A program made the position numbers and the translations under genes. The notes under the pieces were generated by a model. The model ran no database searches, was not told where the DNA came from, and saw nothing but the letters and a program-made list of their open reading frames with translations. From an uncultured Desulfocapsa sp. (GTDB taxonomy: Bacteria > Desulfobacterota > Desulfobulbia > Desulfobulbales > Desulfocapsaceae), in the NCBI GenBank assembly GCA_947311435.1, contig CAMZKT010000022.1, forward strand, positions 1-61,346: a DNA stretch of 61,346 bases, read 5' to 3'. Every line of letters starts with the position of its first letter. The first letter of the stretch is position 1. Positions 2,860 to 29,728 of this stretch are shown piece after piece.

Positions 2860-2893
2860 ACCCGTTCCCTTCAGGAGCCTAAAGGGAACGGGT
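2860..2893 (-). promoter_or_regulatory. Leader hairpin in the nikA 5' UTR
   Basis: ACCCGTTCCCTT (2860-2871) pairs perfectly with AAGGGAACGGGT (2882-2893) around a 10-base loop. In the leftward transcript it lies between the operator and the nikA start and is followed by TTTCTTAAAAAA. It may be an attenuator or a 5' stabilising stem. The role is inferred. Confidence 0.45.
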
Positions 2894-2901: not shown

Positions 2902-2964
2902 GTTAACACGTTTTGCAGTTACGTGTTACCGGCAATGAATAGTTGATATCATTTCACTTGTCAA
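2902..2964 (-). promoter_or_regulatory. nikA promoter with NikR-type operator
   Basis: The leftward promoter has -35 TTGACA (2964-2959), a 17-bp spacer and -10 TATTCA (2941-2936). Immediately downstream lies the palindrome TTAACACG-N11-CGTGTTAC (2903-2929). The same half-sites and spacing recur at three other promoters in this window, always over or just behind the -10 box, as expected for a repressor. From memory, deltaproteobacterial NikR proteins are reported to bind GTGTTAC/GTAACAC half-sites about 13 bp apart. Confidence 0.7.
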
Positions 2965-3022
2965 GAACAAAAACAGTTAAATCTCCCTGCAAAGAGTCAT
3001 TTGGGTGTTTATATCATGCTTA

Positions 3023-3077
3023 TTGACAGGGGATCTCCCCTCCTGTAAAGTAACACGTTATTATAAAACGTACTACC
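3023..3077 (+). promoter_or_regulatory. Promoter with NikR-type operator for the FecBCD-like operon
   Basis: -35 TTGACA (3023-3028), 17-bp spacer, -10 TAAAGT (3046-3051). The operator GTAACACG-N11-CGTACTAC (3050-3076) overlaps the -10 box; its right half has one mismatch to CGTGTTAC. This places the transcription start near 3058 and makes the ATG at 3125 the sensible start for the downstream gene. Confidence 0.65.
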
Positions 3078-3124
3078 GCGTTTCAGTGTTTCAATTTCGT
3101 TCATTCAAATTAACAGGGGTAAAA

Positions 3125-4237
3125 ATGAATTATTTTTTAAAAATATTGCTGTTGTCGGCTCTCATTGTGTGTTTTGCTGCCCCCTACTCTTCGGCAGAAA
3201 CTCGGGTTATCACCGACATGGCTGGAAGAAAGGTTGAGATTCCAATGGTGGTGGAGCGGGTGTTGTGTTCCGGCCCCGGATGTTTGCGTTATTTAACCTA
3301 TCTTCAAGGTCAAAATCTTGTGGTTGGTGTCGACAGCATTGAGAAGCGGCTAAACAGGTTTGACGCCCGCCCATATGCCCTCGCCAATCCACAGTTCAGG
3401 GAAAAACCTCTTTTTGGTGACTTCAGAGGACATGACAACCCTGAATTAATCCTTGGGCTTAAAGATCAACCCCAGGTGATTTTCAAAACCTTCAAAAACA
3501 TGGGATATGATGCCGATGAACTACAGGAAAAAACCGGAATTCCTGTTGTTTGCCTTTCCTATGCCAATCTTGTATCCGGTCGACGGGTTATCTATGATTC
3601 CCTCATGTTAATGGGCGATATCATAGGCAAAAAGGAAAGAGCGACCGCACTATGTAACTTTATGGAAAAAAATATCAATGACCTTGAGCAGCGGACAGCA
3701 GATATCCAAAAGTCAAAACAATATTCAGTGTATATCGGTGGCATAGCAAAAAAAGGTCCCCATGGTTTTCAGTCCACAGAACCTGGCTACCCACCCTTTT
3801 ATTTTGTCAATGCGATTAATGTCGCCAGATCTTCAGGGAAGAAGAGCAAACCACTACAGCATGCCAATGTATCTCGAGAACAGATTGTATCCTGGAACCC
3901 GGATATACTTTTTGTTGATCTTTCCTCCACTCAGCTCGGCAGAAATGCCGGAGCAGTTTATGAACTCCGCACAGATCCCGCCTATCAAAGTCTGACAGCA
4001 GTGAAGAAGGGAGATGTTTACGGAGTTCTGCCCTATAACTGGTACACAATGAACTATGGATCAATCATTGCTAATGCGTATTTTATTGGAAAAGTGTTAT
4101 ATCCAGAACGTTTTGCAGATATAGACCCAAAGATAAAGGCCGATGAGATATATACTTTTATGGTGGGAAAACCGGTTTTGTCCTTGATGGATAAATCCTT
4201 TAACGGGCTGGTTTTCAAACCTGTCTCCATGAACTAA
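3125..4237 (+). CDS. Metal/chelate ABC transporter periplasmic binding protein (FecB/BtuF-like)
   Basis: 370-residue periplasmic binding protein of the siderophore/cobalamin class (class III SBP fold). The start at 3125 gives a clean signal peptide (MNYFLKILLLSALIVCF, cleavage near SSA|ET). An in-frame extension to 3005 would run across the promoter and operator. The mature protein opens with RVITDMAGRKVEIP, the family signature. Later come NPELILGL and the C-terminal WNPDILFVD. It is first in a three-gene operon with a FecCD permease and an ATPase. The NikR-type operator suggests nickel or a nickel complex as cargo. Iron-siderophore or corrinoid uptake are the alternatives. Confidence 0.78.
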   Translation: MNYFLKILLLSALIVCFAAPYSSAETRVITDMAGRKVEIPMVVERVLCSGPGCLRYLTYLQGQNLVVGVDSIEKRLNRFDARPYALANPQFREKPLFGDFRGHDNPELILGLKDQPQVIFKTFKNMGYDADELQEKTGIPVVCLSYANLVSGRRVIYDSLMLMGDIIGKKERATALCNFMEKNINDLEQRTADIQKSKQYSVYIGGIAKKGPHGFQSTEPGYPPFYFVNAINVARSSGKKSKPLQHANVSREQIVSWNPDILFVDLSSTQLGRNAGAVYELRTDPAYQSLTAVKKGDVYGVLPYNWYTMNYGSIIANAYFIGKVLYPERFADIDPKIKADEIYTFMVGKPVLSLMDKSFNGLVFKPVSMN

Positions 4238-4240
4238 GCC

Positions 4241-5308
4241 ATGCACTTCAGTGAAGGTCAAATCCCTGCCGAATACTCACGACACATCAGGATAAAAGTA
4301 GCATTCCTGCTCTCTTCCCTGTTTCTTGTCGGGCTTGTATTAATCTTTTCAATTGGCATGGGCCCTGTTTCAATATCCCCCCTGGCGGCACTAAAAACTC
4401 TGGCTGGAGAGACCGTCTCCAGCCAGTTTGATATGATCATATGGAATATTCGTCTTCCACAGGCTCTCACAGCAGTGGTTGCAGGCATGGGGCTGGCCAT
4501 GGCAGGAGCAGTGATGCAGGCCATTCTCCGTAATCCTCTAGGCTCCCCATTCACCCTTGGCATCTCCCATGCAGCCGCCTTTGGTGCTGCCTTCTCCGTT
4601 ATGATTCTTGACCTCGGGACGATGACCAGCAGCAACGTGGGAGCTGTCCACCTGAACAGCCCGTACTTAACCACAGCCATAGCCTTTGCCTTCAGCCTCA
4701 TTGCTACCTGTATTATTATCGCCATCTCAAGACTCCGTATGGCGCGGCCGGAGACCATGATACTTACGGGTGTTGCCCTTGGCTCCCTTTTCACAGCGGG
4801 AACCATGTTTCTTCAATATTTTGCAGATGATATACAACTGGCAGCAATGGTATTCTGGACCTTTGGGGATGTGGCCAGAGCCTCATGGGCAGAATTACTG
4901 CTGATCACAGTCGTGGTAATCGGAGCCTCTGTGTGGTTTTTTTTGAACCGCTGGAACTTCAATGCCATTGAAGCCGGCGATGAAACGGCCAAAGGCCTGG
5001 GAGTTAAAGTGGAACAGGTTCGGATAACAGGAATGCTTGTTGCCTCACTTGTAACTGCTGTTATTGTTTCCTTGCTTGGAATCATCGGCTTTGTCGGTCT
5101 TGTCTGTCCACATGTATGCAGGAGACTGATAGGTGATGATTACAGGTTTCTTCTTCCAGGTTCCTGTCTCGTTGGCGGGATATTGTTGCTTGCTGCTGAT
5201 ACTGCAGCAAGGCTTATGTTGGCTCCAAACGTACTGCCGGTATCAATTCTTACCGCCTTCATGGGAGCACCCGTATTCATCTGGCTTATTGTACGGAGTA
5301 ACAGATGA
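4241..5308 (+). CDS. FecCD-family ABC transporter permease
   Basis: 355-residue inner-membrane permease of the BtuC/FhuB/FecCD family with about ten hydrophobic helices. Recognisable segments include IWNIRLPQALTAVVAGMGLA near residue 67, where R-LP is the family hallmark, then MQAILRNPLGSPFTLGIS. The coupling-helix region ends in GLVCPHVCRRLIGDD and precedes the last two helices. The ATG lies 3 bp after the binding-protein stop, and the gene ends by overlapping the ATPase start (ATGA). It forms the translocation pore of the putative nickel-chelate importer. Confidence 0.85.
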   Translation: MHFSEGQIPAEYSRHIRIKVAFLLSSLFLVGLVLIFSIGMGPVSISPLAALKTLAGETVSSQFDMIIWNIRLPQALTAVVAGMGLAMAGAVMQAILRNPLGSPFTLGISHAAAFGAAFSVMILDLGTMTSSNVGAVHLNSPYLTTAIAFAFSLIATCIIIAISRLRMARPETMILTGVALGSLFTAGTMFLQYFADDIQLAAMVFWTFGDVARASWAELLLITVVVIGASVWFFLNRWNFNAIEAGDETAKGLGVKVEQVRITGMLVASLVTAVIVSLLGIIGFVGLVCPHVCRRLIGDDYRFLLPGSCLVGGILLLAADTAARLMLAPNVLPVSILTAFMGAPVFIWLIVRSNR

Positions 5309-6075
5309 TTAATATAAATGTCAGCGGCATATCATTTGCCTACAATGGCTGTTCCGTCCTTCACAAAATATCTTTTCACGTTAACCACGGAGAGCTGCTG
5401 GCCATTCTTGGCCCCAATGGAGCTGGTAAGACCACTTTATTGAAGTGTATGAATGGCATTCACACACCTGAGGATGGTGCCGTTCTTGTGGAAGAAAGAA
5501 ATATTTTCACAATGAGCCAGAATGAAATTGCCCGATTATTTGGCTATGTCCCGCAAAGACTTGAGACTGCACGATTGACTGTTTTTGACAGTATACTCCT
5601 TGGCCGCAAGCCTTATATCAAGTGGAGGGTAAGAGAAAAAGATATTCGCATGGTCGACGCTACAATAAGGAGACTCTCCCTTCAACACCTTTCATTGCGC
5701 CATATAGACCGCTTAAGTGGCGGAGAACTGCAAAAGGTATCAATAGGTAGAGCACTTGTCCAAGAGCCAAAGATACTGCTGCTGGACGAACCAACCAGCA
5801 ATCTTGATCTGAAAAATCAGCTTGATATTATGAGTACCATAAAGAATGTGGTGAACAGTCATCAAATATCGGCCGTGATGACAATGCATGATCTCAATAC
5901 TGCCATGCGCTATGCAGATAAGTTTCTCTTTTTAAGAAATGGAGAAATAACTGCCTGTGGCGGATGCGGGAGTATAAATCCAGAGGTTATCGAAAAGGTA
6001 TATGGAGTTAAAGTGGAAATAGAATACCGAAACGGATACCCCGTCATCCATCCGCTGGATGACACTGGCGATTAG
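5305..6075 (+). CDS. FecE/BtuD-like ABC transporter ATPase
   Basis: 256-residue ATPase that energises the preceding FecCD permease. Walker A is GPNGAGKTT (residues 36-44), the signature is LSGGELQKVSIGRAL, Walker B is ILLLDEPTSNLD, and the switch histidine is in MTMHDLN. All catalytic motifs are intact. Its start overlaps the permease stop by 4 bp. Its own TAG stop lies inside the left end of a dispersed repeat, so the repeat marks the end of the operon. Confidence 0.87.
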   Translation: MININVSGISFAYNGCSVLHKISFHVNHGELLAILGPNGAGKTTLLKCMNGIHTPEDGAVLVEERNIFTMSQNEIARLFGYVPQRLETARLTVFDSILLGRKPYIKWRVREKDIRMVDATIRRLSLQHLSLRHIDRLSGGELQKVSIGRALVQEPKILLLDEPTSNLDLKNQLDIMSTIKNVVNSHQISAVMTMHDLNTAMRYADKFLFLRNGEITACGGCGSINPEVIEKVYGVKVEIEYRNGYPVIHPLDDTGD

Positions 6076-6162
6076 TGCCTTACTCCATAAAAGCCATCAT
6101 AAAAAACAAGAAACCGTGAGATTTTTTTATTCAGAAACTTGGAGTTAGCACCAAGGCACTTA
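6072..6162 (+). repeat. Dispersed ~90-bp repeat with inverted ends, copy 1
   Basis: Begins TTAGTGCCTTACTCCATAAA and ends CACCAAGGCACTTA. AGTGCCTT (6074-6081) and AAGGCACT (6153-6160) are exact inverted ends. The body matches the copy at 8032-8124 closely and the copies at 8160-8250 and 15780-15865 more loosely. It is followed by small hairpins (CCCCT/AGGGG, AGAGTC/GACTCT, CCGAC/GTCGG). No ORF is present, which fits a REP- or MITE-like element. Confidence 0.7.
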
Positions 6163-6222
6163 CACCCCTCAAGGGGGTACTGAAAAGAGTCCTGTGACTC
6201 TAAAAAGTTTTCCGACTTGTCG

Positions 6223-6272
6223 GGTTAGTGTCTTACGCCACAAAAGCCGTCATAAAAAAAACGTAACTGTTC
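6223..6272 (+). repeat. Partial copy of the dispersed repeat
   Basis: GGTTAGTGTCTTACGCC followed by a body resembling the first half of copy 1 (CCGTCATAAAAAA). The second half is missing where the sequence runs into the FmdE-like gene. It follows a CCGACTTGTCGG hairpin, like the tandem second unit at 8160. Confidence 0.5.
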
Positions 6273-6302
6273 AGGTAGCACCTGAATTTGGCATATCTGC
6301 CA

Positions 6303-6908
6303 TCAATGGCAAATCCCCCAAACTGGCTCAAGACCGGCACAAGACATGCAGCAGATGTCACCTTCAACATCCCAGGCCTTGTCAAGAGGAATCAGGCTGC
6401 CACAATAATGGCAATGAATCAAATGCCCTTCCTCGTTGTGTATTTGCAAGCGTCGACAACGGCTCTGGCGAATAAAGGAAAAACTGGTCACCGGTTCACA
6501 AAGAATTGTTCTTACAAGAAAATCAAGACTGGCCTGGTACCTTTCCAACTCCTCGTAGTTGTGCTCACACAGTTCCGATTCCAGCTCACGAATTTCCTGC
6601 GGTAACTCAATCCGTTTCCATATAAGTGTGAAACTTAATTGTGTTCCGGTTATGAGATGATAAAAGTGGTAATCCCAGGGTCTGGCAGACTGGGGTACAA
6701 CTATTTGCCCAAGGTAACCACGCCTCTGTATCAGATGTGCAAGAGCCATGGTTGTATCATTGTCGGAGACGGCTGCCACACCCACATCACTGAAGTCATC
6801 GAAACACTCCTCCACGTACATACCAATTTTCCAACCAATGGCCATTTCAGGACTTAGATATCCTTTCCTTTGCACCAGGCTGTATAAATTCATTGGCACT
6901 ATCATCAT
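6303..6908 (-). CDS. FmdE-like protein with C-terminal zinc ribbon, nickel-regulated
   Basis: 201 residues. The C-terminus has a zinc ribbon, CHYCG (C166, C169) and CCMSC (C187, C190), in the context IPLDKAWDVEGDICC, which resembles the tail of FmdE-family proteins. The N-terminal GYLSPEMAIGWKIG (residues 16-29) looks like a degenerate form of the FmdE core HGHLCPGLALG, with the metal-binding His and Cys lost. No signal peptide, so probably cytoplasmic. It stands alone, convergent with the FecBCD-like operon, and has its own NikR-type operator. I infer a metal-handling or sensing role linked to nickel; the biochemical activity is unknown. Confidence 0.6.
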   Translation of the reverse strand: MMIVPMNLYSLVQRKGYLSPEMAIGWKIGMYVEECFDDFSDVGVAAVSDNDTTMALAHLIQRRGYLGQIVVPQSARPWDYHFYHLITGTQLSFTLIWKRIELPQEIRELESELCEHNYEELERYQASLDFLVRTILCEPVTSFSFIRQSRCRRLQIHNEEGHLIHCHYCGSLIPLDKAWDVEGDICCMSCAGLEPVWGICH

Positions 6909-7018
6909 GTTCTCCAGTTATGGGAATATATTATATATTTAACTGCAGTTTTCTTTTCTCACAAATAATATGGCAAGCAGACATACAATTTACATTTGAA
7001 ATGGTAAGCAACGACCAT

Positions 7019-7076
7019 GTAACACGTATTGCATATTCGTATTACCGGAAGATAGTAAAAAAAGATCTTTTGTCAA
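7019..7076 (-). promoter_or_regulatory. Promoter with NikR-type operator for the FmdE-like gene
   Basis: Leftward -35 TTGACA (7076-7071), 16-bp spacer, -10 TATCTT (7054-7049), then GTAACACG-N11-CGTATTAC (7019-7045) directly downstream. One mismatch to the symmetric consensus. Layout is the same as at nikA. Confidence 0.65.
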
Positions 7077-7303
7077 GAACTTAAAAAGAGAGTTGTTACG
7101 GGCTCCATCAGAAAAGCCAGGGTAAGCGTTTACAGAGCCAGGGTTACGGTAAGCCTTGATGACTGGTGAACGGTTACAAGTCAGGCACCCGGTAAAGTAC
7201 AACTGATAACAAAAAAATGAGACCCGTAAGAAGCAGGATAGGGATAAAAGGGGGCAGAGTAAGATTAAAATATGAATATCGGGGGAGAATGCAAACACTA
7301 CCG

Positions 7304-7438
7304 TAACTACTCACAGGGCACCGCATCTCTGCGGAGTCTCGTGTCTCGCTTACCTGCGCGGTCACGCTCACTTGCGTATGACTTATACGCTGTGCCGGCC
7401 TGCCTGCGAAAGTAACCCGCTTACCCCGTGAGTAGTTA
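7304..7438. repeat. 135-bp element with 15-bp inverted ends
   Basis: TAACTACTCACAGGG (7304-7318) and CCCCGTGAGTAGTTA (7424-7438) match as inverted ends at 14 of 15 positions. The interior is GC-richer and has no convincing ORF. It fills most of the gene gap 6909-7462, together with the nickel-type promoter. It may be a MITE-like element or a large stem-loop; no second copy was found in this window. Confidence 0.5.
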
Positions 7439-7462
7439 GCTCTCACCCGTTTATATGAACAG

Positions 7463-7930
7463 TTACATACTTTTTAAAAACTTTCCCTGGTTATCATCAA
7501 GAACATCCGTGGTACGGACGATACAACGAAGGTGCAACATGGTCGCCTCTGCTTTTAAAGCTGCAATCTTCTGGACAAGCGGAGCAAGCTCTTCAGGAGT
7601 TTTTCCGGAAAAAATCCCGCTGGCCACCTCCAGCTCAAGTGGATTGATCTTCATGGCCAGCTCGTGAGCGCCCGCCAGCGTTTCCTGTCTTATCACCAAC
7701 AATTTACTTTTCTGATCTTCACTGAGGTTAAATTCCGGTTTATCCCAAGCCTGCATAACCTGTTTAGTCATATGCGGCATCTTCCCCATAATCAAAAACG
7801 GAGGACTCTTTTTCAACTCTGCAATTTTTATATTTTTAGCAGCAGGTACTGCGTTCTCTGCCATACCATTCACGCAGAACAAAGATAAAGCAAGAGCTGT
7901 CGCTACAGGGATAAAGACTTTTTTAATCAT
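7463..7930 (-). CDS. Small periplasmic protein, possibly Spy/CpxP/ZraP-like
   Basis: 155 residues if started at the ATG at 7930, which follows a good ribosome site (GGAGT) and gives a clean signal peptide (MIKKVFIPVATALALSLF, cleavage near GMA|EN). A longer in-frame start at 8011 would place 27 unlikely residues before it. The mature part is helical and charged. LSEDQKSKLLVIRQE and the later helix pair recall the periplasmic Spy/CpxP/ZraP chaperone or metal-stress family, but the LTxxQ motif is only approximate. Monocistronic; flanked by repeat elements on both sides. Function not established. Confidence 0.6.
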   Translation of the reverse strand: MIKKVFIPVATALALSLFCVNGMAENAVPAAKNIKIAELKKSPPFLIMGKMPHMTKQVMQAWDKPEFNLSEDQKSKLLVIRQETLAGAHELAMKINPLELEVASGIFSGKTPEELAPLVQKIAALKAEATMLHLRCIVRTTDVLDDNQGKFLKSM

Positions 7931-8031
7931 AATCAAACTCCGTTGGTTTATATTGACAAACAATCCTCCCCTTTCACAAAAGAGAAGGTGCACCACAAAA
8001 ATATAACTCACCCGACAAGCCGGAAAACTAT

Positions 8032-8124
8032 TTAGTGCCTTACTCCATAAAATCCATCACAAAAAACAAGAAACCGTGAGGGCTCTTTTTATTCAGCAAC
8101 TTGGAATTAGCACCAAGGCACTTA
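8032..8124 (+). repeat. Dispersed repeat, copy 2
   Basis: AGTGCCTT (8034-8041) and AAGGCACT (8115-8122) inverted ends. The body is nearly identical to copy 1. It is bracketed by a further inverted pair, CCCGACAAGCCGGA (8011-8024) and TCCGGCTTGTCGGG (8145-8158), so 8011-8158 could fold into one long structured stem. Confidence 0.7.
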
Positions 8125-8159
8125 TCCAGCGACTCTAAAATGTTCTCCGGCTTGTCGGG

Positions 8160-8250
8160 TTAGTACCTTACTACAGAGAATCCGTCATAAAAACAAGAAA
8201 CAGCGAAAGATTTTTAAAGTAAGAAAATTAGAGCTACCACCAAGACATTA
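8160..8250 (+). repeat. Dispersed repeat, tandem third unit
   Basis: Starts TTAGTACCTTACTACAGAG and ends CACCAAGACATTA. It is a diverged tandem neighbour of copy 2. Its last bases are the TAA stop codon (reverse strand) of the tetR gene, mirroring copy 1, which starts in a stop codon. Confidence 0.6.
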
Positions 8251-8895
8251 ATCAATCTTTATAAAACTCCCCAAGCCCTGAAGGAAAATTTTACTCACCA
8301 GGTCGGCATAATCATCAAGTGTCACCGATGCCAACCGCTCAGGCTGAACCTGCGCCATAACAGGATTGAACAGGAATTTTGATGCCATCATAGATGTTAA
8401 GGTGGAACAAAAAAGCACCGGGACTGCAAGTTCAGCGATTTCGCTATCCAAATCAACAGAATCAAGAAACTCCTTCACCGTTGCTATCATCTGTTTTCCC
8501 CAGAGAGCCTTATGTTCCGTAATCTCGGGGTCTTCATGTGGCAATTCAGTTATTGTGACCAGCAGATATTCACTATTCTCTGAAAAAAACGTAACGACCT
8601 TGTGTATAAACTTGTCCAGCCTTGTCAAAGGTGGGGCATTTCCGAGGAGTTCACTCCTTGCAATCTCAAGGTACCCAGAAAAGAACATATCCAGAATTTC
8701 CTTAAGCAATGCCTTTTTTGAACCATAAAAATAATTAATCATTGCCAAGTTTACATCTGCCAGTGCCGCCAGCTCCCGAAGCCCGGTATTCCCATATCCC
8801 CGTCGGGAAAACAGCTCCACCGCCGCCTGTAGAATCCGCTCTTTTGAACCTGGATCATTGGTTTTCAAATCTTTTCTTCCCATTGAATCTCCCAT
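8248..8895 (-). CDS. TetR/AcrR-family transcriptional regulator
   Basis: 215 residues. The N-terminal TetR domain starts at SKERILQAAVELFSRRGYGN, and the recognition helix-turn-helix lies about residues 37-60 (LRELAALADVNLAMINYFYGSK). The C-terminal half is a diverged ligand-binding domain, so no ligand can be proposed. A second possible start is Met5. It is transcribed away from a MacB/Lol-type ABC operon. A 17-bp sequence 23 bp upstream of its start also occurs in front of the RND efflux operon at 26.7 kb. The likely role is autorepression plus control of the RND operon and possibly the ABC operon. Confidence 0.85.
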   Translation of the reverse strand: MGDSMGRKDLKTNDPGSKERILQAAVELFSRRGYGNTGLRELAALADVNLAMINYFYGSKKALLKEILDMFFSGYLEIARSELLGNAPPLTRLDKFIHKVVTFFSENSEYLLVTITELPHEDPEITEHKALWGKQMIATVKEFLDSVDLDSEIAELAVPVLFCSTLTSMMASKFLFNPVMAQVQPERLASVTLDDYADLVSKIFLQGLGSFIKID

Positions 8896-8917
8896 AACTG
8901 CTCATCGCCCCTGACTC

Positions 8918-8971
8918 AATCAAACGATTGTTTACCCGTGACATTTAAATCCCTTTCTGTTTTACTGTCAA
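8918..8971 (-). promoter_or_regulatory. tetR promoter and 17-bp operator
   Basis: Leftward -35 TTGACA (8971-8966), 17-bp spacer, -10 TTAAAT (8948-8943). Downstream is AATCAAACGATTGTTTA (8918-8934), whose core is AAAC-N4-GTTT. The reverse complement of these 17 bases is found exactly at 26669-26685. A second palindrome, TCGAC-N6-GTCGA (9009-9024), lies in the rest of the 331-bp divergent gap and may serve the ABC operon. No convincing promoter was found for that operon. Confidence 0.65.
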
Positions 8972-9226
8972 GGAAGCAATCACTGACAAACATCCCCTGT
9001 TTCGACGTAAATGTCGATATAAAACACTGTTTGTCGACAACTCTTCCAACAAACCTGTTTCAGACAATTACCAAGCGAAGCTGGAATGCCACAAGTAACC
9101 CATTCCCATTTTTTGTTTCAGAAGATGTACACGGCCTGTTTTTTGCTAGAAGATTCTGAAAACAAAATAAAATCGAGGTCGTTTAAAGCCATAATATCTT
9201 ACAAGCCACAAAAAGGGAGAAACAGA

Positions 9227-9931
9227 ATGTATCTCGTTGAAAGCAAGAAAATCACCAAAATTTATCAAACAGAAGAGGTCGCCATAACAGCCATTGAAGA
9301 TGTTTCCTTCACCATCGACAAAGGCTCTTTTGTCTCCTTCGTCGGTCCTTCGGGCAGTGGCAAGTCCACTCTTTTGAACATGATTGGCTGTCTGGATCCT
9401 CCCAGCAGCGGATCATTACAGGTTGTCGGACAGGACATAGGAAAAATGAGTCGGAATCAGGCTGCTTCCTTCCGTGGCGAGAACATCGGTTTTGTTTTTC
9501 AGGATTTCAACCTTATTCCCGTTCTGTCTGTAGCAGAGAATGTTGAGTACCCGCTCATAATGGTACAAAACTGGCCCGCCGAGAAACGAAAGAAAAGAGT
9601 CGCGGAAATGCTTGAAGCCGTGGACATAAGCGATCAGGCTAACAAATTTCCCGGCCAGATTTCAGGGGGGCAAAAACAGCGGGTGGCCATAGCAAGAGCT
9701 TTGGTAACCAACGCCCCTCTGGTACTGGCCGATGAGCCAACTGCCAACCTGGATCGAAAATCTGCCGAACGAATTGTGGATCTTATGAAGAAAATGCGAG
9801 ATGAGTTTGGTACCACTTTTATTTTTTCAACCCATGACCCGCGAGTGGTTCAACATGCTGAAACAATTTTCACCCTAGAAGATGGCCGTCTGGTAAGCCT
9901 GGAACAGGGAGAAGGAGGAAATCATGCTTAA
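9227..9931 (+). CDS. MacB/LolD-type ABC transporter ATPase
   Basis: 234 residues with the start at 9227, behind AAGGGAGA. An upstream in-frame ATG at 9086 would add 47 residues unlike the family. Walker A GPSGSGKST (residues 40-48), signature ISGGQKQRVAIARAL, Walker B LVLADEPTANLD and switch THDPRV are intact. The sequence is closest in style to LolD/MacB ATPases, which move substrates out of the inner membrane without a classical import channel. It overlaps the FtsX-like permease gene by 8 bp. Confidence 0.88.
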   Translation: MYLVESKKITKIYQTEEVAITAIEDVSFTIDKGSFVSFVGPSGSGKSTLLNMIGCLDPPSSGSLQVVGQDIGKMSRNQAASFRGENIGFVFQDFNLIPVLSVAENVEYPLIMVQNWPAEKRKKRVAEMLEAVDISDQANKFPGQISGGQKQRVAIARALVTNAPLVLADEPTANLDRKSAERIVDLMKKMRDEFGTTFIFSTHDPRVVQHAETIFTLEDGRLVSLEQGEGGNHA

Positions 9932-11168: not shown

Positions 11169-11206
11169 ATACAAAACACTCACTGAAAAACATGGAGAAA
11201 ACAGAT

Positions 11207-11950
11207 ATGATGAGGAAAGTACGAATACAACTGGCCATATTCTCCCTGCTGTTTGTATTGCCTGGCACACTCTGGGCGATTGACGGTACGGAGCTACTGA
11301 AACAAGTGGATGCCAACCTGCAGCCTCCCACCTATGAAATGTACAGAAAACTGATCAACATAGAACCCGACGGCAACAAAAAGGAATTCGTCTTTTATAC
11401 TGTCAAGAAAGGAAAGGAAAAGATGCTTATTCTGTTTCTTTCCCCGGCCAGCGAAAAAGGGCGGGTATCTCTGCGGATTGGTGACAATATGTGGCTCTAC
11501 ATCCCCAATGTTGGAAGACCAATCAGGATCACCAGTCTCCAATCCGTTGTGGGAGGTGTTTTTAACAACTCAGACATCATGAGACTTGATTTTCACGTCG
11601 AATATGATGTTGAGAAACTGAGCGATCAGGGCGAAACCTGGTTACTGGAGCTAAAAGCCAAGAGCGGTTCGGTTGCCTATGACCGTTTAAAAATGACGGT
11701 TGATAAAAAGACGGTTCAGCCTCTGGATATAGAATGTATCGCCAGCTCAGGTATGCTCATTAAAACCCTTCACTATAGTGACATTAAGGACTTGGGAGAT
11801 GGCTTTATCCGCCCAGCTAAACTGGTGACAGACAGCCCCCTGCACAAAGGATACAAGTCGGTAATGATCTTTGCCAAGATAAAAAAACGTGAGCTTGATG
11901 ATGAAGTGTTCACCCTTGACTTTATGCCAAAGATTGGCGAGTTACGCTAG
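11207..11950 (+). CDS. LolA-like outer-membrane lipoprotein-sorting protein
   Basis: 247 residues from the ATG at 11207, which has GGAG 10 bases upstream; 11192 is a possible longer start. Signal peptide to about LWA|ID. The body has features of the LolA-like sorting family: GTELLKQVDANLQPPTYEM, a run of beta strands, and the conserved KGRVSLRIGDNMWLYIPN stretch. Such proteins carry acylated cargo across the periplasm in a half-open barrel. It lies between the ABC permease and the barrel protein, so it probably shuttles a hydrophobic cargo between them. Cargo unknown. Confidence 0.75.
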   Translation: MMRKVRIQLAIFSLLFVLPGTLWAIDGTELLKQVDANLQPPTYEMYRKLINIEPDGNKKEFVFYTVKKGKEKMLILFLSPASEKGRVSLRIGDNMWLYIPNVGRPIRITSLQSVVGGVFNNSDIMRLDFHVEYDVEKLSDQGETWLLELKAKSGSVAYDRLKMTVDKKTVQPLDIECIASSGMLIKTLHYSDIKDLGDGFIRPAKLVTDSPLHKGYKSVMIFAKIKKRELDDEVFTLDFMPKIGELR

Positions 11951-11972
11951 GTCCCATTGCCCGGTATGTGCC

Positions 11973-13286
11973 ATGAAACATAATTTTTTCTTTTTTACTA
12001 TCCTTTTCCTGGGCATCTTCTTTAATTGCAGCTTGCTCCCTGCTGAGGAGACAGAGGACAGTTTTGATTTTAAACTGGAGGAATTTGAAAAAAAGCCACT
12101 GCAATGGGGCGGGTATATTGAAGGAAAACTAGAACATTTCTCCCTCAATACAGAGTCATCACTCTACCTGCTCACCATACCCGAAAAGGATCGTTCATCT
12201 CTTGATAGAGCCACCGGAACCCTGCAATTAAAAGGCAACTACAGTTTTGCAAAAAACAGTCTCCACTGGTTGCTCATGGGCTCTGCCAACGCAGACCAGG
12301 AAGAATACGACGACTGGGCTGATATATATGAGACGTACCTGCGGCTGCGTCCCACCGAGACCTTCACCGTTGAAGCAGGAAAGCAAACCTATAAGTGGGG
12401 AACCGGGTATGCCTGGAACCCTGCTGCCTTTCTTAATCGTCGGAAGAACCCCAATGATCCGGGTGAAGACCTGGAAGGATTCATAAGCCTTGAGTCCACA
12501 TGGGTACACAGTTTCGGAAGTACTTTAAATTCCATGGCAGCTTCTCTGAGTATTCTTCCGGTTTGGGAAGGAGTAAACGAAGACTTTGGCCGCCGCGACA
12601 ATGTGAACCTGGCAGCTAAAATCTATCTTCTGGTAAAAGACATCGACGTTGATCTGATTTATTTTACCGGCAACTCCCGCTCCACTCGTTACGGTCTGGA
12701 TTTTTCCTCCAACCTGACCACCAACTTTGCAATTCACGGAGAGTTTTCCCATATTCCCGACAGCAATAGAATTGTACTGACCGAAGATGGTAGTCTGTCC
12801 CCTGAAACACGTTCGGCCACCAGCTACCTGTTGGGATTGCGCTACCTCTCCGAACAAAATATCACCACCATTATCGAATATTATCACAACGGGCAGGGAT
12901 ACTCAGAGGAAGAAATGAACCGCTATTATCAGCTGGCATATGATACCCACGGAGTGACTGAGCCGGAACTCGCTGCCGAACTGCTGGCAAAAGCCTTCAC
13001 TGTCAGTCGAAGCGGCTATGGTGCTTTCCAGAGTGGAAAAAATTATGGTTATGCCCGGGTAACCTGGAAAGAACCGTTTGATATCGTCTATTTCACTCCT
13101 GGTATAACCACCATCGTAAACATCGACGACAAATCCTGGACAATAACCCCCGAGTTTCTCTATACAGGATTCACCAACTGGGAGCTGCGACTGCGAGCCT
13201 CTCTGCTTGCAGGTGGCAGGTTCAGCGAATATGGAGAAAAATCCACTGAAAGTAAAATTGAGCTGCGAGCGAGGTATTTTTTTTAA
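11973..13286 (+). CDS. Outer-membrane beta-barrel protein, last gene of the ABC operon
   Basis: 437 residues with a start at 11973, chosen because it gives a signal peptide (MKHNFFFFTILFLGIFF); 28 residues further upstream are in frame but not signal-like. The mature protein has alternating amphipathic strands and aromatic girdles throughout, and it ends in ELRARYFF. A terminal aromatic is the BamA recognition sign of outer-membrane barrels. GKQTYKWGTGYAWNPAAF resembles DUF1302-like barrels that accompany LolA-like proteins. It is predicted to be the outer-membrane acceptor or pore of the preceding export genes. It is convergent with the next gene, with no gap. Confidence 0.7.
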   Translation: MKHNFFFFTILFLGIFFNCSLLPAEETEDSFDFKLEEFEKKPLQWGGYIEGKLEHFSLNTESSLYLLTIPEKDRSSLDRATGTLQLKGNYSFAKNSLHWLLMGSANADQEEYDDWADIYETYLRLRPTETFTVEAGKQTYKWGTGYAWNPAAFLNRRKNPNDPGEDLEGFISLESTWVHSFGSTLNSMAASLSILPVWEGVNEDFGRRDNVNLAAKIYLLVKDIDVDLIYFTGNSRSTRYGLDFSSNLTTNFAIHGEFSHIPDSNRIVLTEDGSLSPETRSATSYLLGLRYLSEQNITTIIEYYHNGQGYSEEEMNRYYQLAYDTHGVTEPELAAELLAKAFTVSRSGYGAFQSGKNYGYARVTWKEPFDIVYFTPGITTIVNIDDKSWTITPEFLYTGFTNWELRLRASLLAGGRFSEYGEKSTESKIELRARYFF

Positions 13287-14153
13287 TTAATGCCGTCCAC
13301 CACCTCTTCCGGAACCACCAGAATCACCACCGTGTCCCCTGTCTGAATCACCGGCCCCTCCCCCATCATTGCCGGAATCATTACCACTCCCGGAATCTCC
13401 GGCATCAGCATTACCACCTGCCCCAGATTCATTTGAACCACCAGGTTCTCCACCATGCCCAGCTCCTCTATCATGCCCCTCAAGATCTTTCCCCTTCAGA
13501 CCCTGATCCATGGCTGCCCCATATTCCTTAACTAAAGATTCACGGCTTCTGTGTGCTCCATATTGTCCGAAACTGTTTCGCATGGCCTCCATATCTTTCG
13601 CGGAGAAATCCTTTCTCACAGCCTTGCCGACAAGATCAGCAGTTGCTTCTGACGAAGTCCCCCGGCGGCAGAAATCCCGTGCGGTGAGCATTGTTTTTTC
13701 CGCCAATCGGTAAAAATCGTTTTGCTTCATCCTGGCAGCTCTGGCCTCAAGCTCACCTACAAGTTCTTCAGCATCCTGACGGGTCAACCCGGCAGCCATT
13801 CCTGCTGTTATGGTATTGCCAAGTCTAAACCTTTCTCGTGTTTTTTTACTGAGTGTGCTGGCGAGTTGATAGCCATACTGATAACGAGAGCTCACTCTTT
13901 CAAGTGCCTGAACAATTCTATCCGGATCCACCTGTTTTGCGATTCCCTCGTAAACCTTTCCGACCACCGCTCCCGTGGGAAGCCCCTGCTGCTGAGCAGC
14001 GCCGACCATGTTTTCCACCTGCTGGACCTGCTCTGCACTGAATCCGGAAGTTTCCATGGCCTGAACCAGAGTCGGATCAAGTTCAACGGCAAAAACAGCC
14101 GGAGAAACGGAGAGAAGGATAATGATTACAAATGTAAATGTTAAATATTTCAT
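13287..14153 (-). CDS. Secreted protein with Gly/Ser/Asp-rich tail
   Basis: 288 residues, not recognised as a known family. Signal peptide residues 1-22 (cleavage near VFA|VE). Residues 23-220 are helical and charged, with repeated Q/E-rich segments. From about 228 the tail is almost only Gly, Ser, Asp, Asn, His and Arg (GAGGNADAGDSGSGND type), low complexity and probably disordered. It lies downstream of the ECF sigma operon in the same direction and may belong to it. The tail resembles in composition the Gly/Asp-rich protein at 17.9 kb. It could be an envelope or matrix protein, but its function is unknown. Confidence 0.6.
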   Translation of the reverse strand: MKYLTFTFVIIILLSVSPAVFAVELDPTLVQAMETSGFSAEQVQQVENMVGAAQQQGLPTGAVVGKVYEGIAKQVDPDRIVQALERVSSRYQYGYQLASTLSKKTRERFRLGNTITAGMAAGLTRQDAEELVGELEARAARMKQNDFYRLAEKTMLTARDFCRRGTSSEATADLVGKAVRKDFSAKDMEAMRNSFGQYGAHRSRESLVKEYGAAMDQGLKGKDLEGHDRGAGHGGEPGGSNESGAGGNADAGDSGSGNDSGNDGGGAGDSDRGHGGDSGGSGRGGGRH

Positions 14154-14236
14154 ACTAATTACCTGTACCGTGCTTGTTGTTGTGTGCCTTCTGCGTACTT
14201 GTTTCTATAACGCCCGAAGACTGTAATGGTTACAAC

Positions 14237-14560
14237 TCACGGTTGAAAAAGACAGTTTTCCGATCCAAAATCATCGGTTTCCTTGAGTTGACAGTCAGGC
14301 AAATACACAGAACCGTCAACAACATAAAAATATGCAAGCTCCTGAACCGAACCCACAGTTGCCTGCCAGTCTCCAGATTCCGTTTTTATGATATCATGAA
14401 GTGCAAAATTATCCGTTGATGAAGCCAACTGAACACGTTCTGCATCAGGAAGACGTATGGAAAAAAGAACCGTATCCTGGTTTCTCTCAACAAAATGAGA
14501 AGAAGCGCAACCCGATAGAATTGTCGACAACAACAGTGCCAACCAAACTGATTTCATCAT
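14237..14560 (-). CDS. Small lipoprotein with a CBM48-like fold
   Basis: 107 residues. A lipoprotein signal ends in the lipobox LSGC (Cys18). The mature part (VLFSIRLPDAERVQLASSTD, GDWQATV, LAYFYVVDGSVYLPD) follows the strand order of the glycogen-binding domain in the neighbouring gene, in a shorter version. It overlaps that gene's stop codon by 4 bp, so the two are translationally coupled. Likely a membrane-anchored partner of the sigma/anti-sigma pair. Ligand unknown. Confidence 0.55.
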   Translation of the reverse strand: MMKSVWLALLLSTILSGCASSHFVERNQDTVLFSIRLPDAERVQLASSTDNFALHDIIKTESGDWQATVGSVQELAYFYVVDGSVYLPDCQLKETDDFGSENCLFQP

Positions 14561-15129
14561 AGCGAACCTGCCACCCTGATAATTGAATTAATCCCGCCGA
14601 AATCGTCATGTTCATAGGTGAGAACTGTCGGGTCGGCCACCTGCCGGCCATCATCCACCAAATAACTATAACGATGTTCTCCACCAGACAAGCTAAGTTG
14701 TGCTGTCCAGTATCCACTGTCCCCTATTTTTTCCATGGCCACCGGAGACCAGCGGGTAAAATCACCTACGATTTCCACTTTACTCACATCCGGACTATAA
14801 ATAACGAAACGATGCTGCGTCTCAATCGGGGAGACGACCGGAGAAGGATTCGACAGGTACACACCGACCATCAGCACCATGGCTGTTGCAAATCCCGCCA
14901 AGGGGAGAAACCATGACTGGAACCTCCCGACCTTTTCCTCTGCTACCATCGGAATGCTTACATGGGGGAGAGAAACTGCCATACCACCCTGCAACAGTTT
15001 TTCCTGCACAAGAAACTCCACCGCTTCATCCTTGAACGGTTTGTTTCCATGTACATTCTCAACAAATTCAATCTTTTCATCAATATCAAGTTCGTTATCC
15101 ACAAACATACTGATAAGGTAATCTTTCAT
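14557..15129 (-). CDS. Probable anti-sigma factor with CBM48/AMPK-beta-type sensor domain
   Basis: 190 residues in three parts. An N-terminal acidic helical segment (1-50) opens MKDYLISMFVDNELDIDEK, in the style of anti-sigma zinc-less domains. One membrane helix spans about 73-92. A C-terminal early-set/glycogen-binding domain (about 104-187) has VEIVGDFTRWSPVAMEK and HRYSYLVDDGRQVADP, typical AMPK-beta/isoamylase-N motifs. It overlaps the ECF sigma gene by 4 bp. The inferred role is a membrane-held inhibitor of the sigma factor whose outer domain senses a carbohydrate or other ligand. Anti-sigma activity is inferred from position and topology only. Confidence 0.6.
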   Translation of the reverse strand: MKDYLISMFVDNELDIDEKIEFVENVHGNKPFKDEAVEFLVQEKLLQGGMAVSLPHVSIPMVAEEKVGRFQSWFLPLAGFATAMVLMVGVYLSNPSPVVSPIETQHRFVIYSPDVSKVEIVGDFTRWSPVAMEKIGDSGYWTAQLSLSGGEHRYSYLVDDGRQVADPTVLTYEHDDFGGINSIIRVAGSL

Positions 15130-15602
15130 GATTGGCCCTGCCTGAGTATTGTTTTGAGTTTAGTCCGTGAACGATGAATTTTCACTTTGATATTCCCCTC
15201 GCTGTTTCCTGTTATCTTTGCAATTTCCCGGTAACTCAAATTGCTGCTTACCACAAGCGACAAGATATCCCTTTCCTCGTCATCCAGCTTTTCCATGGCA
15301 CGCAACACCCCCTGATACTCCTCTTTGATGCCATACGCTTCTTCCTGACCAGTACCTTCTCCATGCAGTTCATCCTCGTACGATGTATCTCCCCTGTTTT
15401 TCCTGAAATGGTCATAGAGGAGATTCCGTCCAATGGTAAAGAGAAGTGCGGGACTCTCCTCCCTGTCTTTATAGCGTTCAAGATACCTGGTGAAACTTTC
15501 CTGCATAATGTCTGCAGAAAGGTGATAATTCCCCGTTTTGCGAAGCAGATATCCAAAAAACTTTTCTTTATTTTCTATGTAAAACTTTCGAAACGTATTC
15601 AT
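15126..15602 (-). CDS. ECF-type RNA polymerase sigma factor
   Basis: 158 residues, normal for an ECF sigma factor. Region 2 covers about residues 5-70 (FGYLLRKTGNYHLSADIMQE, LLFTIGRNLLYDHFRK). Region 4 covers about 100-153 (LDDEERDILSLVV, SYREIAKITGNSEGNIKVKI). It is first in an operon with the membrane CBM48 protein and the small lipoprotein, all overlapping by 4 bp, and perhaps the secreted Gly-rich protein. Confidence 0.88.
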   Translation of the reverse strand: MNTFRKFYIENKEKFFGYLLRKTGNYHLSADIMQESFTRYLERYKDREESPALLFTIGRNLLYDHFRKNRGDTSYEDELHGEGTGQEEAYGIKEEYQGVLRAMEKLDDEERDILSLVVSSNLSYREIAKITGNSEGNIKVKIHRSRTKLKTILRQGQS

Positions 15603-15779
15603 CCTATAAACATCAACTCTTTTTACCCAAAAAGGTTACGGCAAAAGAAGATTTAAAAGCTTTAATCATAAAACAATCTGCCAAAGAGATGAATTAGACT
15701 ACTCAGAACACTTTTTCCCAACAAGTAGGAAAAGTTTCAAGATTCGCTGGGCCCTTTGATAAAACACATTCAAGATGTG

Positions 15780-15865
15780 TAAGTTCCTTGGTGGAAGCTC
15801 TAACTGTCTGATTGTGAAGCTCCCTCGTTGCTTTTTATTGCTGTTTTACAGAGTAAGCCACTCAA
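15780..15865 (-). repeat. Dispersed repeat, diverged copy in inverse orientation
   Basis: Reads TAAGTTCCTTGGTGGAAGCT and ends ACAGAGTAAGCCACTCAA, the reverse complement of the 8160-8250 unit with many substitutions. It lies in the 387-bp gap between the ECF operon and the chemoreceptor gene. Nothing else was recognised in that gap. Confidence 0.5.
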
Positions 15866-15989
15866 CCAGAGGCAACCGCTCAGGGTACCTTATTTTTCTG
15901 TGGTCATGCGATTTTTGCCCCCCTTACGCCACCGCCGTTCCATAGGAAAGACAAGCAACAAGAGGGCATTTCAAACCTGCCTTAGCTTC

Positions 15990-17693
15990 TTATGAACGTC
16001 CCCTCTGTTCCACCGTCTCAGTATCGATTATAAACTTACTGACCATGTTATTTAAATTATTCACGATATCAGCCAAGTCACCAGCACTGCTACTCACGGT
16101 ATTACCTGTATTGGACAGTTCTCCGGCAAGACTTGACATTTCTGCTATATCCTGAGCGATCTCAACTGAAGCCGCTGAGCTTTGTGCAACATTTTCATTG
16201 ACTTCAGAAATCCCGATGGCTGCCTGCTGGATATTTGATGAAATCTCGTTGGTGGTTGCGGTCTGTTCTGCAACAGAATTACTAATCCCCGCCACAATGT
16301 CATCCACTTTCTCGATGACTTCTGAGATCTGTTTGATTTCGGCCACTGTCTCAGCAGTTGATCCCTGCATGGATTCAATGGACGACCTGATTTCTCCGGT
16401 GGCTTCTGCTGTCTGTTTAGCCAACTCTTTTATTTCGTTTGCAACAACAGCAAAACCCTTTCCGGCCTCGCCTGCCCTTGCCGCCTCAATGGTTGCGTTC
16501 AAAGCCAAAAGATTAGTCTGATCGGAAATTTCAGTTATCACTTCCGTGACTTTGGAAATTTGATTAGCCGCCTCACCAAGAGAATCGACCTTCCTTGAAG
16601 AACTGTTTGCAAGTCGCACCGCATCTTCTGTGACACTTCGTGCTTCCCTGGTTTTTGCATCGACTTCTTCTATGGAACTGGTTACTTCTTCGGAAGCTGT
16701 GGCCACAATATTTACATTAGTTGACGCCTCCTCACTTGCAGCAGCGACAGAATTCATATTCACACTCAGTTGTTCTGTTGCAGCAGCAATTGAACTTGAT
16801 CGTTCTGAAACATTACGACTATTGCCAGACATTGAACCAGCCACACCATTCAACTCATTTGAAGTTGAATCCAGTCCAAGAATTTCACTACTTAAACTTC
16901 CTATCATCCTGTTTAACTTTTCCGCAGTTTTATCCAAAGCACCAACCAGGAGTCCTACTTCATCTTTTTGCTTCAACTCAATTCGTTTGCTAAGATCACC
17001 ATTGGCCAATATTCCTGCGAACCCTACTGCTTTTTGAAGGGAAGAGCTAATCTGTTTTGAGATAATAAAGCTAAAAAGAAACGCAATTGCCAGAGCCAAT
17101 ACAGTAAGGATTTTGAGTAAACGAATTTCAAACAAAGTGTCAGCTTGCAATTGTTTGTCCCCTTCCATAGCAATCTGGTTCACCATCTCCCCCACCTCCT
17201 CAAGCAATTGAGAAGTTCGTATAAGGGATGGTTTTGTTTTGGTTTTATAAACAAGCATGGCGGTCTCTTTTGAACCTCCGCTGGCATTCACTTTTTCCTG
17301 GATTTCTTTTGCAGAATCATGGATAGCCTTATGGGGAGCTTCTATAGATTTCAGTATTGATCCCAGGGAGGGGTTTACTTTTTCAACTAGGCTTCGTTTT
17401 TCTCCGTAAAGCCACTGCCCAAGCTTGCACTTACGATGATCGGTTGAAACACTCATGTTTGTAACATTTTTATCATGAAGAAAGGCCATTACCTTATTTT
17501 GCCATTTCAGATGATCAATCTCTTTCTGAACAACCTCCCCTGCTATCTCGTTCAAGAAGAGATTACGTTCTATTTCATCTGAAATTCCGGTGAAACCAGA
17601 ATAAGTGATAGTACTTATCGTTATAAGTAGGGCACACACCGTCCCGAAACCCACTGCCAATTTCTTCGCTATTGATAAATTGTTCCACAACAT
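15990..17693 (-). CDS. Methyl-accepting chemotaxis protein with CZB-like periplasmic domain
   Basis: 567 residues. TM1 about 10-32, periplasmic domain 33-190, TM2 about 192-212, then HAMP, then the long signalling coiled coil. The hairpin tip EISDQTNLLALNATIEAARA is intact. The periplasmic part contains a chemoreceptor zinc-binding (CZB) pattern: DHLKWQNKVMAFLHD, DHRKCKLGQWLYGE, and PHKAIH, supplying His and Cys ligands. CZB domains are more often cytoplasmic, so the placement outside is notable. Monocistronic. Probably a sensor of zinc, or of an oxidant acting through the zinc site, linked to CheA/CheW encoded elsewhere. Confidence 0.88.
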   Translation of the reverse strand: MLWNNLSIAKKLAVGFGTVCALLITISTITYSGFTGISDEIERNLFLNEIAGEVVQKEIDHLKWQNKVMAFLHDKNVTNMSVSTDHRKCKLGQWLYGEKRSLVEKVNPSLGSILKSIEAPHKAIHDSAKEIQEKVNASGGSKETAMLVYKTKTKPSLIRTSQLLEEVGEMVNQIAMEGDKQLQADTLFEIRLLKILTVLALAIAFLFSFIISKQISSSLQKAVGFAGILANGDLSKRIELKQKDEVGLLVGALDKTAEKLNRMIGSLSSEILGLDSTSNELNGVAGSMSGNSRNVSERSSSIAAATEQLSVNMNSVAAASEEASTNVNIVATASEEVTSSIEEVDAKTREARSVTEDAVRLANSSSRKVDSLGEAANQISKVTEVITEISDQTNLLALNATIEAARAGEAGKGFAVVANEIKELAKQTAEATGEIRSSIESMQGSTAETVAEIKQISEVIEKVDDIVAGISNSVAEQTATTNEISSNIQQAAIGISEVNENVAQSSAASVEIAQDIAEMSSLAGELSNTGNTVSSSAGDLADIVNNLNNMVSKFIIDTETVEQRGRS

Positions 17694-17926
17694 TTGATTG
17701 TCCTCCCATAATTTATTGATAAAATTTACGATATCAGGCCACTACTTTAGTCTATGATAAAAATGCAACTAAACAAAATTGTTTTTTTAAAAAAACCAAA
17801 CAATCTTGTAACCAACCCTACCTTTCTTCGTTGTACTGGTAAGTTCACCAGGTGGATGTGGAAAAAAGCGGGCAGACGTACTGCTCACCATATCCACTGG
17901 TTAATTTTCAATTCAGGAGAAAAATC

Positions 17927-18469
17927 ATGCTTGTAATGACTTCAAAAACTGTAAAGACCCTTGTAATGGCAGCCGCACTTTCCTTTCTTACTATTCCGGC
18001 CATGGCCGGAAACGGGAATGGCGATGGTACTCCAGATCGTGACAGAGATGGGTCATGCCTCACAGTATTCAGTGACAGCTCTGCAGTACTGTTGGCACGA
18101 GGAGGAAATGGTAACGGTGGGAGTGGCAATGGTGGAGGACAAAATGGTAACAGAACCGGTGACCAGGATGGCTCTGGCCCAGACAGACTTAAAGACGGTT
18201 CCTGCCTTGACCTTTTCGCACCGGCCAACAGCACATTACTCGTAAAACAGAATGGTAACAGAACTGGTGACCAGGACGGCACACCAGATCGCGACAGAGA
18301 CGGTTCCTGCCTCACGGCATTCGGTAACAGTTCTGCCGTACTTCTCGCACGAGGAGGAAATGGTAACGGTGGGGGTGGCAATGGTGGCGGTAACGGCGGT
18401 AACGGCCCCGGAGATGGCACAGGGGATGGTACTCCAGATCGTGATGGAACCTGCACACTGAACGTATAA
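17927..18469 (+). CDS. Secreted Gly/Asn/Asp-rich repeat protein
   Basis: 180 residues from the ATG at 17927, preceded by AGGAGA; an in-frame ATG at 17852 lacks a signal peptide. Signal peptide to about AMA|GN. The mature protein is built of imperfect repeats of the form GDGTPDRDRDGSCLT, then an S-S-A-V-L-L-A-R hydrophobic patch, then a Gly/Asn linker. There are three full units and a short fourth ending CTLNV. Each unit has one Cys. The D-x-D-x-D-G spacing recalls calcium-binding loops, but this is unproven. No family recognised. It stands alone and has its own terminator. Confidence 0.65.
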   Translation: MLVMTSKTVKTLVMAAALSFLTIPAMAGNGNGDGTPDRDRDGSCLTVFSDSSAVLLARGGNGNGGSGNGGGQNGNRTGDQDGSGPDRLKDGSCLDLFAPANSTLLVKQNGNRTGDQDGTPDRDRDGSCLTAFGNSSAVLLARGGNGNGGGGNGGGNGGNGPGDGTGDGTPDRDGTCTLNV

Positions 18470-18537
18470 TTTATGTACCTGAAACTTCTATTCTGCAATT
18501 AACAGTGCAGGATTAAGATCCAAGTACTTTTGGAAGA

Positions 18538-18567
18538 GGCGTGTCCCATCTGGGCACGCCTTTTTTT
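18538..18567 (+). terminator. Rho-independent terminator of the repeat-protein gene
   Basis: GGCGTG(T)CCCA / TGGGCACGCC stem with a two-base loop, followed by seven T residues (18561-18567), about 70 bp after the stop codon. Confidence 0.85.
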
Positions 18568-18626
18568 GTTTGCGTACATGCAGTACGTTACCGTTGCCCC
18601 CCAAAACTCAGCTGTACAAATCACTC

Positions 18627-18680
18627 TTGACAGATGAAATAAAAGCTGCTATCGTAACACGTTTTAAAAGATGGTGTTAC
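18627..18680 (+). promoter_or_regulatory. nikMLK promoter with NikR-type operator
   Basis: -35 TTGACA (18627-18632), 17-bp spacer, -10 TATCGT (18650-18655), and GTAACACG-N11-GGTGTTAC (18654-18680) overlapping the -10. One mismatch from full symmetry. This is the fourth site of the same type and layout in the window, and it lies about 100 bp before a nickel/cobalt transporter gene. Confidence 0.7.
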
Positions 18681-19385: not shown

Positions 19386-19388
19386 GCC

Positions 19389-29660: not shown

Positions 29661-29728
29661 AAGAATTCCTCTCCTCGAAGGATATGCCCGACTCTCAAAG
29701 GGATGAGGCAGGCTTGATTAAGATATTT

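Follow-up and report, generated by a model that had tools for sequence, protein, structure and literature searches.

The stretch of DNA analysed here, hereafter the window, comprises 61,346 nucleotides of an uncultured Desulfocapsa sp. (GenBank assembly GCA_947311435.1, contig CAMZKT010000022.1, positions 1 to 61,346). It carries four sets of genes with a predicted role in nickel import or handling, each preceded by a promoter and by a palindrome close to GTAACAC-N13-GTGTTAC (Table 1). We propose, with a probability of about 0.9, that a single NikR uses all these palindromes as its operators and would repress nickel import by blocking RNA polymerase.

Table 1. Genes, promoters and predicted NikR operators of the window.
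Feature	Positions	Strand	Remarks
nikB-like permease (NikB/Opp-type)	109..1095	-	operon continues beyond window start; 99% identical in congener G012
nikA-like nickel/peptide-family solute-binding protein	1216..2790	-	SBP_bac_5; NikA models match below cut-offs
Predicted NikR operator of nikA-nikB transcript	2903..2929	-	TTAACAC-N13-GTGTTAC on +; begins 6 bp past -10 end
nikA sigma-70-type promoter	2936..2964	-	TTGACA-17-TATTCA
Promoter of fecB-fecCD-fecE-like operon	3023..3051	+	TTGACA-17-TAAAGT
Predicted NikR operator of fecB-fecCD-fecE-like operon	3050..3076	+	2 mismatches; 2-bp overlap with -10 box
Peripla_BP_2 periplasmic binding protein, Fe-siderophore/B12-type	3125..4237	+	predicted nickel(-chelate) carrier
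FecCD-family permease	4241..5308	+	profile match
ABC ATPase, FecE/BtuD type	5305..6075	+	profile match
FmdE-fold protein (predicted), C-terminal CxxC...CxxC zinc finger, HxHxC motif lost	6303..6908	-	alignment, structure model
Predicted NikR operator of FmdE-like gene	7019..7045	-	GTAACAC-N13-GTATTAC on +; begins 3 bp past -10 box
Promoter of FmdE-like gene	7049..7076	-	TTGACA-16-TATCTT
nikMLK promoter	18627..18655	+	TTGACA-17-TATCGT
Predicted NikR operator of nikMLK	18654..18680	+	perfect GTAACAC-N13-GTGTTAC; 2-bp overlap with -10 box
nikM (CbiM family)	18780..19385	+	profile match
nikL	19389..20054	+	NF058648, 178 vs cut-off 100 bits
nikK (DUF4198)	20044..20823	+	profile match; NikK homologues elsewhere have site too

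A reading made from the letters of the window alone (the sequence-only reading) had named the targets as NikABC-like, FecBCD-like, FmdE-like and NikMLK genes. The FecBCD-like set holds, with a Peripla_BP_2 protein, a FecCD permease and an ATP-binding cassette (ABC) ATPase at 3125-6075, as does the NikMLK set, with CbiM/NikM, a NikL scoring above its cut-off and a DUF4198 protein at 18780-20823; these last are components of an energy-coupling factor (ECF) transporter of the NikMLK(QO) type, whose NikQ and NikO genes adjoin nikR elsewhere in the assembly. In the NikABC-like set, an SBP_bac_5 protein is followed by a NikB/Opp-type permease; the former reaches 95.5 bits against the curated NikA model (cut-off 393) and is called NikA-like because its assignment stops at the SBP_bac_5 superfamily.

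All four palindromes were located by pattern search where the sequence-only reading had placed them, and its claim of one or two mismatches at most is borne out. In this regard, the sites of nikA, fecB, the FmdE-like gene and nikM depart from the 16-position pattern of that reading at 1, 2, 1 and 1 positions, respectively, and from GTAACAC-N13-GTGTTAC at 1, 2, 1 and 0. They are the sole matches in the window to the former with up to three mismatches (100 dinucleotide shuffles: mean 0.09, maximum 1 match) and to the latter with up to two (dinucleotide shuffles average 0.09), and a 14-bp spacer and the classical orientation, GTGTTAC...GTAACAC, gave matches in the window at chance level only. The sites display the features of the deltaproteobacterial NikR operator, namely a 27-28 bp inverted repeat with 7-bp half-sites GTGTTAC/GTAACAC and a spacer of 13 or 14 bp, in reversed orientation. 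The palindrome is not the textbook NikR one, but the reversed form already reported in 2004 (PMC545781). Both mismatches of the fecB site fall in one arm, which tells against its being an operator.

A perfect TTGACA and a spacing of 16-17 bp are found at the 4/4 window promoters, and scripted measurement of the site start relative to the end of the -10 box agrees with the earlier claim that the palindromes lie over or just behind that box. Together with the nikR site described below, all five sites lie at the downstream edge of their TTGACA- or TTGACC-type promoters, their starts ranging from -2 to +6 bp relative to the -10 end. A repressor acting by steric block would be expected to bind in just this overlap with the -10/+1 region, and an activating role of NikR at some of these promoters, such as Helicobacter pylori NikR has at urease, is extremely improbable.

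The nikA 5' leader additionally contains a strong hairpin just downstream of the palindrome (window 2860-2893, minus strand; -26.6 kcal/mol, z -6.4). A hairpin stands at the equivalent position in the congener G012, where the bases differ yet still pair (z -6.1). This element could possibly provide a second layer of control or stabilise the mRNA.

The sequence-only reading had noted that no nikR lies in the window, correctly so, and had proposed a search of the genome for a nikR with a ribbon-helix-helix (RHH) domain. Exactly one NikR is encoded in the assembly, on contig C112 (G000:C112), in the gene order nikR-nikQ-nikO. The protein carries RHH_1 (PF01402), matches PF08753 at 1.8e-34 and scores 180 bits against the NCBIfam NikR model (cut-off 105), displaying an N-terminal RHH and a C-terminal nickel domain with the conserved His/Cys residues of the family; H76, H87, H89 and C95 are invariant in the NikR alignment (A2), and structures have been solved for relatives (2bj1, 2ca9, 1q5v/2hzv). 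A fifth palindrome, TTAACAC-N13-GTGTTAA, which the sequence-only reading did not include, spans the promoter and leader of this nikR (L009 7189-7215), overlapping by 2 bp the -10 box of TTGACC-17-TATCTT and stopping 2 bp before the likely ATG. This ATG, at L009 7218, is more likely to be the nikR start than the upstream GTG proposed by the open reading frame tool, since the GTG falls inside the operator. The nikR operator also includes a Shine-Dalgarno-like AAAGG, and it abuts the start codon at a fixed distance in about 30 relatives.

When the whole assembly (2.45 Mb, 134 contigs, 89% complete) was searched by pattern with up to two mismatches, seven matches were found, five at nickel-gene promoters and two (C32 and C42) inside unrelated coding sequences; the latter were rejected as operators for being intragenic. 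At up to three mismatches a backwards-read control pattern outnumbers the motif (84 matches vs 47), and therefore only matches with two or fewer were trusted. Across the assembly, then, no promoter of an unrelated gene carries the site, whereas those of nickel transport genes do. The two computational checks suggested in the sequence-only reading, for a NikR homologue and for the distribution of further sites, thus both come out in its favour. The proposal of a compact nickel regulon is supported by the single nikR, the fifth site and the 5/7 matches at nickel promoters, and the ECF nickel transporter, split between nikMLK in the window and nikRQO on C112, is reunited by a common operator.

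These features are consistent with the following mechanism. When cytoplasmic nickel is sufficient, a nickel-loaded NikR tetramer would form on the operator, with one RHH dimer on each 7-bp half-site and the half-site centres 20 bp, or two helical turns, apart. The tetramer would cover the -10 end and the start site, blocking RNA polymerase and shutting off the peptide/nickel-type ABC importer (nikAB...), the FecBCD-type importer, the split ECF importer (nikMLK plus nikQO of C112), the FmdE-fold accessory gene and nikR itself.

FecBCD-type transporters are often regulated by iron or B12, and a TetR-family-like regulator gene lies within the interval (8248-8895). The palindrome might be the target of a different metal regulator, such as a Fur/Zur/MntR-like protein or the TetR-family product, with NikR binding elsewhere. 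Against this, the published NikR consensus has identical half-sites and spacing (PMC545781), the palindrome overlaps the nikR start in many genomes and is carried by ECF nickel genes too, and the 20-bp centre spacing matches that of H. pylori NikR; moreover, one genome without nikR (G073) has an FmdE-like gene without the site. We consider another regulator highly improbable.

Judged by NikR, the nearest named relatives belong to Desulfocapsa (Desulfocapsaceae, Desulfobulbales), and the arrangement predicted to be under NikR control is conserved in congeners. The whole block is kept in G012, a congener in which the FmdE-like gene, again accompanied by a site, and fecBCE are followed by two exact sites and then by nikA and nikB. 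The exact copies of the nikA site (L231 10588-10614, in the same promoter position) and the fecB site (L231 10416-10442) start +6 and -2 bp from the -10 end, as in the window (where nikM also shows -2), and the FmdE-like one starts at +4 (+3 in the window), with diverged spacers. The FmdE-like site recurs with one mismatch at the equivalent position in G012 and in G143, where it stands ahead of an FmdE-like-nikA-nikB cluster. The nikABC genes of G178 follow a bona fide FmdE gene (PF02663 2e-26) with a 2-mismatch site, and distant homologues in that genome match PF02663 at 6e-27. Relatives also carry nikR-nikM-nikL-nikQ-nikO as one operon behind one site. Of 146 genomes of the order, 14 have exact reversed sites, most of them at nikR, nikM, nikK or nikA/fecB. 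For two such sites the neighbouring gene could not be linked with nickel: one precedes a TrmO-like gene (G124, L046), and the other is close to a radical S-adenosylmethionine gene (G131, L235).

Two genes of the nicotianamine synthase family (PF03059, E 1e-23 and 2.5e-32) occur close to nikAB in the congener G143, and a further exact NikR-type site (10926-10952 of L232; G143:C153, 8581-12996) separates them from the gene of a TonB-dependent receptor. Nicotianamine synthase was found in only 1/93 genomes of the family. The locus is a candidate for a NikR-controlled nickelophore system.

The 201-residue product of the FmdE-like gene gave no match in Pfam and NCBIfam searches, PF02663 included. 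Its AlphaFold model (predicted local distance difference test 71, predicted template-modelling score 0.65) retrieves FmdE structures as all top four Foldseek matches (E 5.5e-4 to 1.8e-3, prob 0.99-1.00), the fold rows from the PDB ranked under them being noise, and compares with 2glz at a VIA Z of 9.3 over 121 residues; the modelled protein has the FmdE core fold. In an alignment with six relatives the C-terminal CxxC...CxxC finger is kept, as in the FmdE family (PF02663; PDB 2glz, 2gvi, 3d00), whose genes often lie beside metal transporters, whereas RKGYLSPE replaces the HGHVCPE of the G178 FmdE and the HxHxC metal-binding motif is absent. The designation "FmdE-like" made beforehand is thus upheld as to fold, but neither the metal motif nor the family profile goes with it. 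FmdE proteins are known as neighbours of metal transporters, and one of them binds Zn/Ni through the ligands lost here (PMC2954224). With the HxHxC site gone, our guess is that the protein could act as an accessory in nickel import or handling through its zinc-finger part.

Comparison with known systems delimits what is new. Rodionov et al. (2004; PMC545781) described the deltaproteobacterial NikR site as GTGTTAC-N13/14-GTAACAC, and reported that in Desulfotalea psychrophila these half-sites are turned the other way round, as GTAACAC-N13-GTGTTAC; the window motif is this known reversed site and, as such, a rediscovery. The D. psychrophila regulon shares the motif, an ECF operon (nikMLKQO) and a second target with two sites 73 bp apart, whereas here five promoters are involved, including those of nikR, nikAB, the fecBCD-like genes and the FmdE-fold gene, and nikMLK is transcribed apart from nikQO. 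The Geobacter and Desulfovibrio sites resemble ours in the 27-28 bp inverted repeat, the 7-mer, the spacing and the class of targets, but their half-sites point the other way. Escherichia coli NikR is likewise a nickel-responsive RHH repressor at a nickel ABC importer promoter (nikABCDE), with another half-site sequence (GTATGA-N16-TCATAC) and essentially one target operon. The H. pylori regulon has multiple targets, FecD/FecE and CeuE-type genes among them, and 20-nt centre spacing; it differs in its A/T-rich degenerate half-sites and in the presence of TonB receptors and urease among the targets. Our findings extend the nickel regulon predicted for Desulfobulbales to FecBCD-type and FmdE-fold genes, and close the loop of a prediction made from sequence only: the regulator was found, a fifth site was found and the regulon is clean.

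The orientation of the half-sites was followed in nikR loci gathered from the order (110) and from named organisms across phyla (80). NikR beta strands read either RF[ST][IV]S or RFG[IV]S; the C112 protein has RFT, and the NikRs examined from Geobacter (L219) and of the Desulfovibrio type (L194, L212, L220) have RFG. When sites with two or fewer mismatches are counted in the 700 bp preceding nikR, the order set gives 17 reversed and 0 classical sites for RF[ST] and 0 reversed and 19 classical for RFG; the named set gives 5:0 and 0:10, respectively. With up to one mismatch at any non-coding position of the loci, the ratios of reversed to classical are 13:0 and 0:18; the order and named sets share some genomes. 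An exact classical match (L055) was discarded for lying inside a phosphoenolpyruvate-carboxykinase-like gene. A motif-free count of inverted repeats returns GTAACAC and GTGTTAC as the sole recurrent half-sites of the two groups, and when three mismatches are allowed at the set position immediately ahead of nikR, 30/100 RF[ST] genes carry a reversed site and none a classical or control one. On these comparisons, GTAACAC...GTGTTAC appears as the arrangement of the RF[ST] NikR lineage, and GTGTTAC...GTAACAC as that used by RFG NikRs. The predicted tie of the reversed orientation to the RF[ST] branch and of the classical one to RFG, where the site lies upstream of nikR, is new.

From the outer to the inner position of the half-site, departures number 13,0,0,4,11,1,0 in reversed sites and 2,0,4,10,4,0,9 in classical ones (5,0,0,2,4,0,0 and 0,0,1,2,1,0,5 in a diversity-filtered subset), and the conservation of the two types correlates at 0.63 when one half-site is flipped and at 0.07 in frame. 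Because the tolerated mismatches of the two types mirror each other, the data suggest a true flip, in which one 7-mer would be read after a turn about its midpoint while the half-site centres stay 20 bp apart; such a flip seems sterically plausible, since the RHH dimer is itself two-fold symmetric. We put forward, tentatively, that two NikR lineages read one 7-bp half-site in opposite orientations to the operator dyad, the orientation tracking the RHH beta-strand/N-terminal arm (RF[ST] vs RFG). If true, an RHH repressor family changed its operator by flipping half-sites, not by changing the sequence read.

The same segregation could also arise without a flip, if RHH residue 5 (Ser/Thr vs Gly) changed which bases are preferred at positions 3-4 of a half-site read in a fixed frame (GT-AA-YAC vs GT-GT-TAC). 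In favour of this, the separation of operator types between RF[ST] and RFG is complete, and residue 5 aligns with Thr5 of E. coli NikR, which we take to be a DNA-contacting beta-strand residue (NikR-DNA structure 2hzv). The mirrored tolerance, which survives diversity filtering, speaks against it, as do the RFS NikRs of H. pylori and Atribacteria, which do not fit a one-residue code, and we regard this explanation as rather unlikely; it touches the lineage rule only, and leaves the regulon unaffected.

Several observations weigh against the lineage rule and the proposed half-site flip. Directly at nikR, a recognisable site is missing from about 70% of the RF[ST] genes, and one reversed-like site was listed for nikK of Desulfovibrio vulgaris (PMC545781). 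In a quick NikR tree most RF[ST] proteins fall in one clade (support 97); the RF[ST]/RFG split is nearly a single tree event, and the match of lineage and operator does not represent many independent ones; the Fisher values computed for this match take no account of relatedness. Two Atribacteria RFS NikRs, nested among RFG proteins, have no site or a weak classical-like one with three mismatches, and in H. pylori an RFS-type NikR goes with a left operator arm, TRTTA, that resembles the classical type. As the Atribacteria and H. pylori proteins break the pattern, residue 5 alone does not set operator orientation; given these exceptions and the near-single split, a one-residue code (Ser/Thr vs Gly) was considered but not accepted as proven.

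Both NikR lineages occur within one genus of the same family (g2), as RFG with classical sites (G023, G056, G093) and as RFT without clear sites (G033, G084, G089, G100), a mix that suggests NikR replacement between close relatives. The coexistence of two NikR-operator pairs in one order, and even one genus, offers a ready-made system for studying what governs the orientation of half-sites in a tetrameric RHH repressor.

Elsewhere in the window, a urea ABC transporter is followed by a urease cluster, encoding a nickel enzyme, with no NikR site (30254-40866). An antisense Rfam call for the 5' ureB small RNA (37570-37856) falls on conserved coding sequence of the urease genes, which may have driven the match. 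A fragment of a group-II-D1D4-1 intron (Rfam, 49 bits; 58148-58255, minus strand) lies downstream of a large helicase gene, and a cobalamin riboswitch (103 bits; 29715-29937, minus strand) stands ahead of a gene (27528-29660) for a ribonucleotide reductase of the anaerobic type.

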